A stretch of DNA of 37,407 nucleotides, from positions 1 to 37,407 of the forward strand of contig DXFH01000018.1 in assembly GCA_019114515.1 (NCBI GenBank). Direction: 5' to 3'. Below, piece by piece: positions 8,429 to 16,888 of this stretch (positions are counted from its first letter, which is position 1; each line of letters begins with the position of its first letter). Both the position numbers and the translations under genes were made by a program. Under the pieces are notes generated by a model, which ran no database searches, was not told where the DNA came from, and saw nothing but the letters and a program-made list of their open reading frames with translations. Source of the stretch: Candidatus Limosilactobacillus merdigallinarum (lineage in GTDB: Bacteria > Bacillota > Bacilli > Lactobacillales > Lactobacillaceae).

Positions 8429-8518
8429 AGGTGGGATCCTCCTTTAAGTAATTCTGACTGACGTTGCTTAAAAGCTATGCAATTTCTTTTATACTGTTGC
8501 AAAAACAAAGTTATTCAA

Positions 8519-8660
8519 AACTTGCGAAAGCTCGGCGGTCTGAGCAGTGAAATTCAACTTAGCGAGCATTCGCTTAGTCGAAGCCTCAGTTTGAAGAATG
8601 GCATAGCTAGGCTTCAAATGATGGCCACTGCGATCCAGACCGCAACGAGCAAAGCAAGTT
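8519..8660 (+). ncRNA. Structured intergenic element, copy 1
   Basis: The closing helix is built in steps: AACTTGC (8519-8525) with GCAAGTT (8654-8660), GCTCG (8530-8534) with CGAGC (8646-8650), and GCGGTCTG (8535-8542) with CAGACCGC (8636-8643), separated by small A-rich bulges. Inside are a hairpin CTTAGCGA-GCAT-TCGCTTAG (8558-8577) and a second hairpin with GAAGCC (8580-8585) against GGCTTC (8610-8615). A competing pairing, TTTGAAG against CTTCAAA, shares the latter arm. Positions 8535-8650 match the minus strand 15809-15694 without gaps at 99 of 116 positions. A possible plus-strand -10 box (TATACT 8490-8495) precedes it, with a poor -35. The rest of the 320-bp gap between fhs and the AI-2E gene holds only promoters and a terminator. 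Function unknown. An Rfam search, including the orphan Lactobacillales motifs, would show whether it is named. Confidence 0.7.
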
Positions 8661-8713
8661 CTGCATTAATTAAGTCTTTCTTTGCATGTTTCAGCTTGAT
8701 TTAACTTTAACCA

Positions 8714-8740
8714 ATAAAAAAGGAGCTGTAAAGCATCCCC
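8714..8740 (-). terminator. Terminator of the AI-2E-type gene
   Basis: On the minus strand GGATGCT / AGCTCC (one bulge) with loop TTAC, followed by TTTTTTATT, just after the stop at 8749. Confidence 0.7.
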
Positions 8741-8748
8741 TCGATTAA

Positions 8749-9792
8749 CTATTGTTTTTTCCAACGATAACGATGTTGTCCGCGACCAACCGGTTTAACC
8801 CCAGCAATATCTAATAGGAAGGTAAAGATCGGCACACCGACGATCAATCCCCATGTTCCGAAGAAGTGTTCACTGACCAGCAATACCACAAAGGTAAAGA
8901 AGATTGGCAATTCAGTACGACTAGACATAAACTTCGGATTTAACACATAGGCTTCCAAAGCGTGGATACACATAATCATCACGATAATGTATATAACGTA
9001 GCGGATACCACCAACGGAATAGCCCACCATACTAAGCGGGATTAAAGAAATAATTACCCCCGCCACTGGCACCATGCTTAACAGGAATACCATCAAACCT
9101 AAAGCAAAAATCTGTGGCATCCGCATAAAGAACAGGCAAATCATGGTTAAACAAGTATTGCAAATAGCAATAAAGAACTGTGCTTCCAGTACCACACCAA
9201 AAGTGTTGACAAACTTTTGACCAAAGTAATAAATGTCTTCAAACATCCAGCCTAAGTAGGTCGATGTCAAGAAACTTTTAGAAAATTCGTTCATTCGGTC
9301 AAGTTCAATGGTGTAGAAGAAGGACAAAATCAGCGACATCGCAACGGCAAATGTTAATGTTCCAATGCTAGTAACCGCATCGACCACTAGCTGTACCCCA
9401 TGCTTAGCTTGGCCAAACAACGAATCCGTCGAAATATAACGATTGATATAACGCATTAGCCAATTCATATCGTTACTCTGGTAAAACTTTATTAATGAAT
9501 TAACCATCTTCACGATTTCTTTGACCAGGAGCGGGATATAATCAGTAATCACAAAGTATAATCCCACGACAATTAGCAGGTAAACAACCGATACAATCAG
9601 CCACGTCGGCATTTTGGGCACCTTTTTCTGTACCCAGCGGATCAGGTGCACCACGATATAGGTAAAAACAAAGGTAATCAAGATGATGTTCATCATCCCG
9701 CGGGCATAATAAAGAACGGCAATGATCATCAGTAATACCACAAAACGATGAAGGTGGACGTTACTGACGAACCGGTTCCATGCTTCCTGCAT
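8749..9792 (-). CDS. AI-2E family (UPF0118/PerM-like) membrane transporter
   Basis: 347 residues with the AI-2E/PerM pattern: two or three N-terminal spans (about residues 18-50 and 60-85), a long amphipathic middle region (90-150), then a cluster of spans (150-175 and 205-320) ending in a short basic tail. Members are proposed to export small molecules, or in some lineages to exchange sodium and protons. The substrate here is unknown. I start at ATG 9792 rather than the adjacent TTG 9795, since AGAGA is 8 bp upstream of the ATG. An extended -10 (TGGTAGAAT on the minus strand, near 9830) may be the promoter. The gene is monocistronic, divergent from the cfa pseudogene. Confidence 0.88.
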   Translation of the reverse strand: MQEAWNRFVSNVHLHRFVVLLMIIAVLYYARGMMNIILITFVFTYIVVHLIRWVQKKVPKMPTWLIVSVVYLLIVVGLYFVITDYIPLLVKEIVKMVNSLIKFYQSNDMNWLMRYINRYISTDSLFGQAKHGVQLVVDAVTSIGTLTFAVAMSLILSFFYTIELDRMNEFSKSFLTSTYLGWMFEDIYYFGQKFVNTFGVVLEAQFFIAICNTCLTMICLFFMRMPQIFALGLMVFLLSMVPVAGVIISLIPLSMVGYSVGGIRYVIYIIVMIMCIHALEAYVLNPKFMSSRTELPIFFTFVVLLVSEHFFGTWGLIVGVPIFTFLLDIAGVKPVGRGQHRYRWKKQ

Positions 9793-13194: not shown

Positions 13195-14415
13195 TTAGAA
13201 TTTTGTGAGTCTATCCCATAATCCTAAAATACCAGACCGGATAACGCGGCTCTGGGCATATGCTTTGATCTGCATTGGGTGTCCATCAATCGTCATAACA
13301 GTTGGATAAGTCAGGTAGCCAACCGGTTTCTTAGTGCCAACGGGAGCCTTCAATGACGTTATATCTTTACCCTGACCATCTTCCAACAATGGGGTAACCG
13401 TTCGCTTAGCAGGCAGCCAATACTTAGTCGATTGTTTGGCCTGTACCACTACGTTTGCCTGCCGTCCCTTGTTAACCACCATCACTTGTTGAGGACGCTG
13501 CTCTTTTAATTGCCATTCATTAGCCACATACTGGTACAGCTGCTTAGTGCTGGCAAAACGATCGGCCGCATGCATCACCACCGTCACAATTGGCCGGCCT
13601 TCATAATAGCCCAAACTGATAAAACACTGCCCCGCTTTATCGGAAGTTCCCGTCTTCAATCCCGCAATCTTTACCTGGCGCGGTGCATCTTTTTGGCCCG
13701 GGAGCATTGTGTTCAACGTCGGGTATTTCTTACCATCGACGCTGACACTGGTCTGCTTAGCATATTGCAAAACCAAAGGATCATTCTTTTGCAAGTAGCG
13801 CCCCATCTTTGCCACATCAGTCGCCGTCATGGAATTTTCGGCGTCATTGCTGGCATTTTTCAGTTTAAACTGCCCCATATCACCATTTTCCAAGCCAACA
13901 GGGTTATAGAAACGATATTTTTTCATTCCCATCTGAGCGGCCATCTTATTCATTTTCTGAACAAATTCCTGACTAGAATCACCATTGGCCCTTGCCAATA
14001 CAACGGTCGCTGCATCCGCTGACTTTATCACTGACATCTGCATTAGCTGCCGAACAGTGTAAGACTGACCATCTCTTAACGGAATATTGGACAAGTCTTT
14101 GTTCTCAGACATCTTGGCCTCAGCTTTGGTTACCTTCACTTTTTGGCCCAGTTTAAGTTTGCCCTGGTTAACTTCTTGTTCAATGATTGCTAACGTTACC
14201 AGTTTACTCATGGATGCAATTGGCAATTGCTGTTGGGCATTTTTCTGATACAAGATTTGACCATTCTGTGCGTCAACTGCAATGGCTGCTCTTACGTTTA
14301 CTTCCGGCGCATCTGCCGCCTTAACGTTGAGCGTGCCGATCGGTGCACTGATCGTCGCAAACAGGATGGTGATCAATAATACTAAAGCCAGCCACAACCG
14401 TTTAATTGGCTTCAT
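13195..14415 (-). CDS. dacA: D-alanyl-D-alanine carboxypeptidase (PBP5/DacA family)
   Basis: 406 residues. The N-terminal signal peptide spans about residues 1-33 (KR, hydrophobic core, cleavage near VKAADA). The penicillin-binding motifs are SMSK (68-71), SAD (132-134, where most relatives have SxN) and KTG (254-256). A beta-rich domain follows (about 290-385) and then an amphipathic C-terminal helix for membrane attachment. The enzyme removes the terminal D-Ala from peptidoglycan pentapeptides outside the cell. AGGAGG lies 9 bp before ATG 14415. The start overlaps the end of the histidine kinase gene by 14 bp, so kinase and dacA are translationally coupled, suggesting wall-stress signalling linked to a wall enzyme. 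Confidence 0.93.
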   Translation of the reverse strand: MKPIKRLWLALVLLITILFATISAPIGTLNVKAADAPEVNVRAAIAVDAQNGQILYQKNAQQQLPIASMSKLVTLAIIEQEVNQGKLKLGQKVKVTKAEAKMSENKDLSNIPLRDGQSYTVRQLMQMSVIKSADAATVVLARANGDSSQEFVQKMNKMAAQMGMKKYRFYNPVGLENGDMGQFKLKNASNDAENSMTATDVAKMGRYLQKNDPLVLQYAKQTSVSVDGKKYPTLNTMLPGQKDAPRQVKIAGLKTGTSDKAGQCFISLGYYEGRPIVTVVMHAADRFASTKQLYQYVANEWQLKEQRPQQVMVVNKGRQANVVVQAKQSTKYWLPAKRTVTPLLEDGQGKDITSLKAPVGTKKPVGYLTYPTVMTIDGHPMQIKAYAQSRVIRSGILGLWDRLTKF

Positions 14416-15565
14416 TTTTATTTACCTCCTCGGATTCTTTCGGCTGTCTGATTGGCAGGGTCACAATAAATGACGTCTCATCTGGATTTGACGTTACTTC
14501 TACCGTACCGTGGTGCAGGTCAACCACACTTTTGACAATTGCTAGACCTAAGCCCGTCCCGCCAGTTGCTTTGGAACGTGAAGCCTCAACTCGGTAGAAC
14601 CGCTCAAACAAGTGTGACAATGACTGTTCCGGAATTGGTTCACCATCATTAGCAACCTTAATCTGCACTTTTCCTTGGTGTTCCACCGCATCAATATGGA
14701 TATAGCTGGCACCCATACCGTACTTAATTCCGTTAGCAACCAGGTTACTGAAGACCCGTCCTAATTTTTCTGGATCTGCTTCAATCATTAAAGGTGTTGG
14801 CCGTGTACTGCTGGTCACCTCAATCCCCTTATTATGGCCTTCCAATTCAAAACTGGCACTCACTTGCTCCAACAGTTGGTTCAAATCCAACTGCATCATA
14901 TTAACTGGAGCTCCATGCTGTTGCACTTTAGTATATTCAAAGAGGTCCTCAACCAAATTCTTCATCTGTTTGGCCTTCTCATAGGCAATGTGGCTGTATT
15001 TCAGAATGTCTCCTTCTGAATGATACTGCTTGTCTTCAATCAGCCGCAGGTAGCCAATAATTGATGTTAATGGTGTCCGCAAATCATGCGAAACATTAGT
15101 AATCAATTCATCCTTAGATTTTTCAATTTGGCGTTCATCATCCATCGAACGTACCGCACTATCAACCAAGGCGTTAACACTGGTCACCACGTGCTGGGTA
15201 CGGCCCTTTAACCGGAATGGAATGCGGTGATCCAGGTGGCCTTGTGCAATGTAGTGCAGTTCTTTAATAATATGGTTCATCTGGTATTGGTGGTAACGCC
15301 GAACAAGACGCCACCACACCACTAGCACATCAATCACCGCAAACAATCCCATGACGATTCGCTGATAAGACCAAATCTGCGCATGGAAAGGCCCAAAGTG
15401 CAGTGACTGCTTAATCATAAAAATACCGCTGGCTACTCCCGGGTTGGTCTGGATAACGTTTTGAATCAGCACGATTAATGCCAAGTTAATTAAAATCAAC
15501 AGGATAATCGTGACAATTCCCTCGAATACCAGCGAGCTTTTTTCTCTTGTCGTTAATTTGAGCAT
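14402..15565 (-). CDS. Sensor histidine kinase (VanS-like), coupled to dacA
   Basis: 387 residues. Two spans (about 12-36 and 68-87) bracket a short extracellular loop. A HAMP-like linker follows (88-145), then a HisKA domain with the phospho-acceptor in NVSHDLRTPL (His near 164). The ATPase domain shows an N box (NLVANGIKYG), G1 (ANDGEPIP), an F box (LFERFYRVE) and G2 (GGTGLGLAI). All catalytic boxes are present. Its likely partner is the response regulator at 16199-16888, upstream on the same strand. Unusually, about 630 bp with terminators and an ncRNA-like element separates them. An extended -10 (TGGTATAAT on the minus strand, box at 15597-15602) can give the kinase its own promoter. Confidence 0.93.
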   Translation of the reverse strand: MLKLTTREKSSLVFEGIVTIILLILINLALIVLIQNVIQTNPGVASGIFMIKQSLHFGPFHAQIWSYQRIVMGLFAVIDVLVVWWRLVRRYHQYQMNHIIKELHYIAQGHLDHRIPFRLKGRTQHVVTSVNALVDSAVRSMDDERQIEKSKDELITNVSHDLRTPLTSIIGYLRLIEDKQYHSEGDILKYSHIAYEKAKQMKNLVEDLFEYTKVQQHGAPVNMMQLDLNQLLEQVSASFELEGHNKGIEVTSSTRPTPLMIEADPEKLGRVFSNLVANGIKYGMGASYIHIDAVEHQGKVQIKVANDGEPIPEQSLSHLFERFYRVEASRSKATGGTGLGLAIVKSVVDLHHGTVEVTSNPDETSFIVTLPIRQPKESEEVNKNEAN

Positions 15566-15606: not shown

Positions 15607-15646
15607 CAAAAAAACATGGTCTAGGGATTGCTCCCTAAACCATGTT
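15607..15646 (-). terminator. Intrinsic terminator of the ncRNA region
   Basis: On the minus strand AACATGGT, internal loop, AGGGA, loop GCAA, TCCCT, internal loop, ACCATGTT, then an uninterrupted T run at 15608-15614. It ends transcripts from the structured region just before the kinase promoter. Confidence 0.85.
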
Positions 15647-15693
15647 GGATTCTTAATTATTTTCTGATATTTACGCCAACCTGTCCCGCTCCC

Positions 15694-15814
15694 GCTCATT
15701 GCGGTCTATATCGTAGGGGCCATCATTTGAAGCCCGTCTACACCGGTCTTCAAACTGAGGCTTCAACTAAGCGAATGCTCGCTAAGTCGAATTTCCCTAC
15801 TGAGACCGCTGAGC
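15694..15814 (-). repeat. Structured intergenic element, copy 2
   Basis: The minus-strand 116-nt core aligns without gaps to the plus-strand copy at 8535-8650, with 17 differences by hand count. The closing helix pairs GCTCA (15814-15810, followed by GCGGTCT) with AGACCGC-AA-TGAGC. The G-C pair of copy 1 has become A-U here, a compensatory change. Wobble pairs (GAAGCCT/GGGCTTC, and G-U in the first hairpin) are valid only in this orientation, which sets the sense strand. Confidence 0.75.
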
Positions 15815-15850
15815 GTTCACGAGTTTTAAACAATGATCAGCTTGTGCACT

Positions 15851-15908
15851 GGAGCTCAGTGGTGAAATTATCGTTAGCGCTGTGCAAACAACGCTTACGA
15901 TAAGACCA
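15851..15908 (+). repeat. Degenerate third copy of the element core hairpin
   Basis: The plus strand carries GTGAAATT, then a hairpin of the type TTAGCG...CGCTTA (15869-15902, 11 bp with one T-T mismatch), flanked by a CTCAGTG-like 5' part. It resembles copy 1 around 8541-8585 but has a longer loop and no convincing outer helix. It faces copy 2 in inverted orientation. Confidence 0.4.
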
Positions 15909-16026
15909 AGCTCGGAGGGAGTGGGAAAGAAGTCGCTTGTGACTTCGTCTTCCCACCCCCGCGAGGATGGCTAGGTATTCTGGGCATTGATTTATCAACG
16001 TCCGGAATCCATCCAGCTACCGCGTT

Positions 16027-16054
16027 AGTATATAAATAACTTTAAAATAGTAAA
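16027..16054 (-). promoter_or_regulatory. Candidate promoter of the ncRNA
   Basis: The minus strand reads TTTACT, a 16-bp spacer, TATACT. It lies directly after the response regulator terminator and directly before the structured region. Confidence 0.5.
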
Positions 16055-16079
16055 GAGACTAGGTTAAATCCCAGTCTCT
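16054..16079 (-). terminator. Terminator after the response regulator gene
   Basis: Stem AGAGACT / AGTCTCT (16054-16060 and 16073-16079), extended by GG/CC pairs, followed on the minus strand by TTACTATTTT. The 120 bp between this and the regulator stop holds nothing I recognise. Confidence 0.65.
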
Positions 16080-16198
16080 CAAAGTTGTGTACACCACGAT
16101 CCAGCTCCAGGAACAGCACAAGCAGATATGTATAAATTTAACAAAATAATCTAACTAAGTAACGAGCAGCACACGTTTTTAATCAACAATGCTAGTCA

Positions 16199-16888
16199 CT
16201 AGTGAGCCTCTACCTTGTAGCCGACGCCCCAAACGGTTTCAATAACCTTTTCGCCACCGGTAGCGGCTTCGATCTTATCACGCAGGTGGCTTACGTGGAC
16301 CATCACCGTCTTAGCAGAAACAACGGATTCCTGTTGCCATACCCGTTCAAAAATATCGTCAGCCGAGAATACCCGGTTCGGGTGTGAAGCCAGCAGGTAC
16401 AGGATTCCAAATTCCAGGGCGGTAAGTTGAATCGTGTCACCATTGATGGTCTTTACTTCATGACTGTCTTTATTGATCTGCAGCGGTCCGACATTCAAAA
16501 TATCCGGCTGGTCATTAGTAACCTGACCAGAACTTCGCCGTAGCAATGACCGTACCCGTGCCATCACTTCAAGCGGGTTAAACGGCTTTGTGACATAATC
16601 ATCGGCACCTGTAATCAAGCCTTGAATCTTGTCCATATCGGCTGTCTTAGCCGACAGAACCAGGATAGGAATAGATGAGTCCTTGCGAATCTGCTTAATA
16701 ACTTCGATGCCGTCCATCTCTGGCATCATGATATCCAAAATAATTAAGCCGATATCAGGCGTGGTATTTAACTTAGTTAGGGCTTCCTTGCCGTTGTATG
16801 CTGCTACTGGTTCATAGCCTTCGTTACGAACGTAGATTTCCAACAGTTGGACGATTTCTTTGTCATCGTCGACAACTAAAATTTTCAT
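16199..16888 (-). CDS. OmpR-family response regulator (VanR-like)
   Basis: 229 residues. The receiver domain (1-120) has the acidic pocket DDD at 7-9, phospho-acceptor Asp52 in LDIMMP, Ser79 and Lys101 in TKPF. A winged-helix DNA-binding domain follows (about 130-227, with LTALEFGILYLLASHPN, then VMVHVSHLRDKIE and WGVGYK). It probably controls wall genes together with the kinase at 14402-15565. GGGAGG is 7 bp before ATG 16888. A TATAAT -10 box at 16923-16928 (minus) is about 30 bp upstream; the -35 is poor. It is terminated separately from the kinase. Confidence 0.94.
   Translation of the reverse strand: MKILVVDDDKEIVQLLEIYVRNEGYEPVAAYNGKEALTKLNTTPDIGLIILDIMMPEMDGIEVIKQIRKDSSIPILVLSAKTADMDKIQGLITGADDYVTKPFNPLEVMARVRSLLRRSSGQVTNDQPDILNVGPLQINKDSHEVKTINGDTIQLTALEFGILYLLASHPNRVFSADDIFERVWQQESVVSAKTVMVHVSHLRDKIEAATGGEKVIETVWGVGYKVEAH

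Follow-up and report, generated by a model that had tools for sequence, protein, structure and literature searches.

The window analyzed here, the whole 37,407-nucleotide contig DXFH01000018.1 of the 1.56-Mb draft genome of Candidatus Limosilactobacillus merdigallinarum (G000, hereafter the source genome), carries two similar structured stretches between genes, and the question is what kind of sequence they are. The preliminary description of this DNA had allowed either a conserved RNA or a REP/MITE-like repeat. Of these, the repeat is now better supported and the RNA less so: the element is probably a non-autonomous, mobile palindromic DNA of the REP/MITE-like kind. The evidence speaks more for a mobile palindrome of DNA than for an RNA gene, an RNA role being the main rival, because sites are empty in a relative, the spread is patchy, copies form ordered two-type pairs, and G-U pairs are few.

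Copies and parts in the window

A gapless alignment of positions 8535-8650 (+) with 15809-15694 (-) gave 99 identical positions out of 116, reproducing the coordinates and count first described, and within the loci examined blastn matched the first window copy to the second at E 6e-37. The element extends past this 116-nucleotide core, to about 8515-8664 for copy 1. Copy 1 (8519-8665) folds at -67.0 kcal/mol (z -7.9) and copy 2 (15680-15830) at -71.1 kcal/mol (z -7.7), and in each case 0 of 200 dinucleotide shuffles were as low. The outer helix AACTTGC/GCAAGTT that had been proposed for copy 1 is present in its predicted fold. The opposite strand of copy 1 folds equally well (-66.1, z -7.3), and copy 1 also folds beyond its shuffles with DNA parameters. 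Copy 1 is solitary; besides it, the window has one pair, with an insert in its second member. The parts are listed below, where R1 is a covariance model built from 13 copies.

8515-8664, + strand: single copy, type I, with an outer stem followed by a three-way junction with two hairpins (Y shape); R1 158 bits, fold, and covariation in 54 copies.
15680-15829, - strand: type I member of an inverted pair, with a decayed 3' outer arm; R1 158.2 bits, fold at -71.1 kcal/mol.
15835-16127, + strand: type II partner of 15680-15829, the 5' ends facing each other with few bases between; from sequence, ends placed by eye from the outer stem.
15913-16077, + strand: insert, a hairpin-rich module within the second hairpin of the type II member; limits placed by eye, module recurs in the genome.
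15613-15646, - strand: intrinsic terminator adjoining the pair; from a terminator scan, also present in the relative G023, which lacks the pair.

Folded as DNA, the window pair (15670-16115) reached a z of -8.3. Type II copies resembling 15835-16127 were found elsewhere in the source genome (L086 4949-5103 and L092 4848-5001), and the insert was found again in L091 4764-5066. The module and its neighborhood (15825-16060) gave 15 matches in the source genome, some of them partial. This hairpin-rich module (GGGAGTGGGAAAGAAGTC..) is found within type II copies and, as solitary pieces of ~50 bp, on other contigs of the source genome. The genes on either side of the window pair, at 14402-15565 (-) and 16199-16888 (-), encode a sensor kinase and response regulator pair that is split by the inserted elements; their best NCBIfam names are VanS/VanR-like, with scores below the cut-offs.

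Spread, fold, and base pairing

Coding sequence was rejected, as 0 of 24 copies in the source genome lie inside an ORF of at least 100 aa. Blastn of 8519-8665 gave 18 matches in the source genome, 14 of which cover at least 89 of the 147 positions, and, in a mixed set of relatives, no match in any of the other 55 genomes. The genome-wide covariance-model count that had been proposed as a check yielded, with R1, 31 matches in the source genome at E ≤ 1 and 22 at E ≤ 0.01. R1 placed the element in 5 of 50 genomes of the genus, a patchy distribution, with 42 matches in G058, 59 in G069, 4 in G019, and 2 in G070 at E ≤ 1. A pattern scan added Lacticaseibacillus brantae, Levilactobacillus zymae, Levilactobacillus acidifarinae, Lactiplantibacillus nangangensis, and Lactiplantibacillus daoliensis as carriers, and the copies in their loci were confirmed by covariance model. 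The order-wide and class-wide scans were limited to scoring 8 or 10 candidates in each genome, which makes their absences soft; a broader covariance model (54 copies) found matches in 24 genomes among the 345 sampled from the order, of which 21 belong to the same family (Lactobacillaceae) and 3 to a second one, and in the class-wide sample the source genome itself was the 1 match among 299 genomes. That second family gave weak matches (9 of 18 genomes at E ≤ 0.01). One genome, G349, held at least 107 model matches, with 150 of 460 first-look candidates scored.

On contig C1 of G349 (loci L272-L291), the 77 element sites are unevenly distributed, with 11 in 0.73-1.70 Mb, which is 40% of the contig (binomial p 1e-6). 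In this genome, GC skew switches sign at about 1.03 Mb and once more at about 2.2 Mb, and the sites, from the 150 of 460 candidates scored, seem depleted around the replication terminus.

The pattern GAAGCCTCAGTTTGNAGACC occurred in 0 stretches among the genome contigs searched, where records near the source genome may be absent. On plasmids, blastn found no match for the window copy or for a copy from the second family, and the large unit matched neither plasmids nor phages; overall, three of four plasmid queries and the sole phage query had no match. A truncated copy, cut by an ISL3 element, lies beside lacD on Loigolactobacillus backii plasmids. The comparison with Rfam that had been suggested, Lactobacillales families included, gave 0 matches in the window above gathering score and, at 8450-8750, only unrelated weak matches with E of 1.1 or more. 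At nine other loci, Rfam matched only three T-box leaders, which lie on the opposite strand within ~130 bp of the 3' end of a copy (L101 10058-10265, L127 6749-6960, and L136 853-1065). A literature search, with most subscription journals outside its coverage, found no description of the family.

In the unit of ~150 bp, outer and inner stems lead to a three-way junction that bears two hairpins. In an alignment of 54 copies from several genera, which was fitted to the model and is thus biased towards the tested structure, pairing is seen in 96.5% of 2088 cells; column shuffles leave 71.6% paired, and sliding the partners leaves no more than 48.3%. Both sides change in 35 of 41 pairs (counts uncorrected for relatedness), and the covariation score is 0.570, compared with 0.153 for shuffled and at most 0.073 for slid columns. 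The fold is real. Well-conserved letters in the alignment include GTGAAATT and CGTTCCAG. The preliminary description had called the stretch noncoding, structured, and repeated, and had named a lack of further copies or of covariation as grounds for giving this up; the ORF comparison, the copies in this and other genomes, and the covarying pairs all uphold it.

A conformational switch, proposed on the basis of two mutually exclusive pairings in copy 1, was rejected. The alternative pairing GAAGCC/GGCTTC is present in that copy and poorly kept across the 54 copies, in which only 62.2% of 320 cells pair and three of the six pairs fail in 34 to 43 copies. One short version of the element (L093 4093-4161) has the outer stem only, both inner hairpins being gone as if the core had been deleted.

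The kind of pair that replaces another bears on whether the helices belong to RNA or DNA. Counted over the first 128 of 144 alignment rows, departures from the modal pair comprised 753 two-sided standard cells, a number inflated by inherited subfamily differences, versus 69 one-sided G-U and 45 one-sided A-C cells. In another set, with one fixed pair excluded, G-U accounted for 30 and A-C for 23 of 2034 cells. As a control, 19 tRNAs from the loci examined had G-U in 32 of 411 pairs; this control brackets only formed pairs, so A-C pairs cannot appear in it. Since G-U is scarce relative to the tRNAs, the helices look like DNA palindromes. The earlier claim that wobble pairs fix the sense strand stands only weakly: the opposite strand folds as well, and G-U exceeds A-C by only 69:45 and 30:23.

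A structured RNA with a cellular role, either a small RNA or a cis-acting UTR element, could have been spread by duplication and kept by RNA selection. It would explain the very strong covariation and the junction and loop letters conserved over several genera, and a fixed G-U pair (columns 125-175) occurs in 44 of 54 copies. In G069 alone, one-sided G-U outnumbers A-C 27 to 7, an excess that leans towards RNA on the strand first proposed. The scarcity of G-U pairs (30 of 2034 cells) and the equally good fold of the other strand speak against such an RNA, as does the fact that no constant downstream gene was seen by eye.

Pairs, insertion sites, and gene context

Neighboring copies are ordered and inverted, and they are of two types. 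The pair analysis used 130 placed copies, 144 model matches minus 14 weak rows. Neighbors within 800 bp were inward (-,+) in 28 of 35 cases, outward (+,-) in none, and on the same strand in 7; in G349 the numbers were 28, 0, and 2. Together the two sets contain 56 pairs with their 5' ends inward and 0 outward. Partners resemble each other less than re-paired copies do (over the first 135 of 144 alignment rows): identity was 0.739 vs 0.784 in 14 pairs of G069 (fraction ≤ 0.003) and 0.637 vs 0.693 in 13 pairs of G058 (fraction ≤ 0.004).

Ten G349 pairs share one architecture, found in both genomic orientations: terminal inverted repeat, hairpin A reversed, central stem, hairpin B forward, and terminal inverted repeat. 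The outer stems form terminal inverted repeats in the source genome as well as in these ten units. By eye, single G349 copies resemble units minus one half, and no consistent target-site duplication was seen at G349 units. In Lacticaseibacillus brantae, three tandem copies with a 168-bp period (L146 1743-2231) precede a copy that is inverted and of the other type (2320-2480).

Sites without the element were sought in G023, the closest relative compared, which is the best match to the formate-tetrahydrofolate ligase region (78%) and in which R1 found no match. Within 430 kb of G023, both flanks were present for 9 of 24 copies, and all nine testable sites were empty, measuring 2-107 bp in G023 vs 188-533 bp in the source genome. 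Loss in G023 instead of gain in the source genome may be an alternative to insertion. At the second window site, the pair lies between the response-regulator stop codon and the intrinsic terminator common to G023. For these site counts and the context counts in the source genome, three weak matches were added back, and one of 23 to 24 copies had no neighbor. Twelve copies have their 3' side towards a stop and their 5' side towards a start, 3 have the reverse (p 0.035), and 8 are arranged otherwise; the 3' side is nearer to a gene in 17 of 23 copies. As a check for remnants of a stem-loop target at the ends, the flanks of 10/11 source-genome copies were compared with their own partners and with mismatched flanks; own partners scored better for the adjacent stem (3.10 vs 1.83, 0 of 300) but not for duplex energy (214 of 300), and the same two comparisons gave 16 of 300 and 57 of 300 for G349 flanks.

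The empty sites in G023 and the orientation of the copies weigh further against the RNA. Because the 3' end tends to face the neighbor's stop codon (12 vs 3), most copies would be antisense to that gene. We consider a structured RNA with a cellular role unlikely.

The same positions could instead have been selected for a service to the host, as a bidirectional terminator or a 3' stabilizer of mRNA. Such a role would fit the nearness of the 3' side to genes, its facing of stop codons in the informative copies, and the strong hairpin on both strands. However, ordinary terminators already adjoin several copies (found by scan at the second window site and by eye at others), no terminator-like site was listed by the scan at copy 1, and G023 does without the element at nine of nine sites. 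A host-serving terminator or stabilizer thus appears somewhat less likely still than the RNA.

Proposed movement and relation to known repeats

Two candidates for an enzyme that would move the element were rejected. Insertion sequences of the ISL3 family are present in G349 (10 copies) and G070 (24 copies), and the G349 ISL3 and the large unit have ends with similar beginnings (by eye; 2/7 ISL3 copies compared), as would be expected if the element were a derivative of them. In G058 and G069, both rich in copies, and in G293, however, PF01610 (ISL3) was without a match, and G000 has no more than a 64-aa fragment; ISL3 was rejected as a general mobilizer on account of its absence from some copy-rich genomes. 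The ISL3 element on the Loigolactobacillus backii plasmids, moreover, cuts a copy and does not carry it, and an ISL3 derivative seems improbable. A REPIN-type element moved by an IS200/IS605-like Y1 (RAYT) transposase, suggested by inverted pairs, intergenic position, and two-type dimers resembling the REP dimers described in PMC3733652, is the least credible of the alternatives and very improbable, as PF01797 (Y1) had 0 matches in G000, G058, and G070 (1 in G069 and 4 in G019) and was found in 31 of 50 genomes of the genus, at least 28 of which lack the element. An autonomous element between widely spaced inward copies was also rejected: six ORFs found there (MFS, aldo/keto reductase, sulfatase, fumarase, and two without a family) include no transposase. 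The pairs examined likewise carry no transposase gene.

For the preferred mobile palindrome, we envisage the Y-shaped hairpin of ~150 bp, with its outer and inner stems and its three-way junction with two hairpins, as the basic unit, and the two types, often joined head to head, as the left and right halves of a larger element. A transposase supplied in trans would recognize the folded single strand or a cruciform and would insert the element beside gene ends and terminators. The arms may stay complementary because selection acts on the DNA fold or because one arm is copied from the other in replication, single copies would be halves remaining after deletion, and transcription into a folded 3' RNA would be a side effect. 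A more specific version, which we put forward tentatively and regard as possible rather than probable, is that of a selfish element, present across Lactobacillaceae and beyond, which would travel folded, either single-stranded or as a cruciform. In this picture, a central hairpin and two different three-way-junction hairpins would make up a trefoil, an enzyme other than Y1 or ISL3 would recognize it, and a DNA-level process would keep the palindrome arms complementary. If true, the element would represent transposition with structured ends of a new kind.

Several observations count against a mobile element. Its structure is conserved across genera, beyond what a neutral relic needs. The searches for a mobilizer and for a clear target-site duplication found neither, G069 has its 27:7 G-U bias, and the blastn queries without a match (three of four against plasmids, one against phages) point the same way.

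If the mobile-repeat reading is right, many lactobacilli, fermentation and gut species included, have in common a family of large palindromes laid out strictly as inverted pairs of two types. With at least 107 matches in one genome, it would be a countable system for the upkeep of palindrome arms, for repeats at gene ends, and for movement without an own transposase. There is also a lesson for annotation: covariation alone should not be taken to mean an RNA gene, since here strong covariation occurs with very few G-U pairs.

Known repeats share parts of this picture. REPs and REPINs, according to PMC3733652, are dispersed, palindromic, mostly downstream of genes, and often inverted dimers, frequently heterodimers; the same text describes CGTC-tagged palindrome families without a dedicated transposase, and "Lactobacillus" and "Firmicutes" do not occur in it. 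The lactobacillus element likewise forms inverted dimers, whereas REPs are simple hairpins of 20-40 bp (PMC3733652) and the unit here is a three-way junction of ~150 bp. REPINs with a RAYT differ in their Y1 transposase, which is absent in G000, G058, and G070, and the element was not filed as a REPIN because that transposase test failed. BOX, RUP, and SPRITE of Streptococcus pneumoniae are small and noncoding, cluster between genes, and insert into one another (PMC10969869); the nested module is a likeness to them, and Rfam, through which sequence and fold were compared, gave no match.

Judged by description, the closest known kind is the REP/MITE repeats, and the enterococcal EFAR elements especially. 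EFAR elements are modular, mostly ~170 bp long, and L-shaped; they insert into stem-loops, and remnants of the target stem stay at their ends. EFAR is probably the Efa-1 family, for which PMC2267715 gives 163 bp, 65 copies, an intergenic position, two adjacent stem-loops, and a fold predicted on both strands. The element was not filed as EFAR, its likeness to it being one of description only. EFAR is enterococcal, whereas the lactobacillus family is found in Lactobacillaceae, with weak relatives in a second family, and ordered two-type pairs are established for the lactobacillus element. Size and the two stem-loops are alike (PMC2267715), the element here having ~150 bp and two hairpins on a three-way junction, and with MITEs it shares terminal inverted repeats and a lack of coding capacity.
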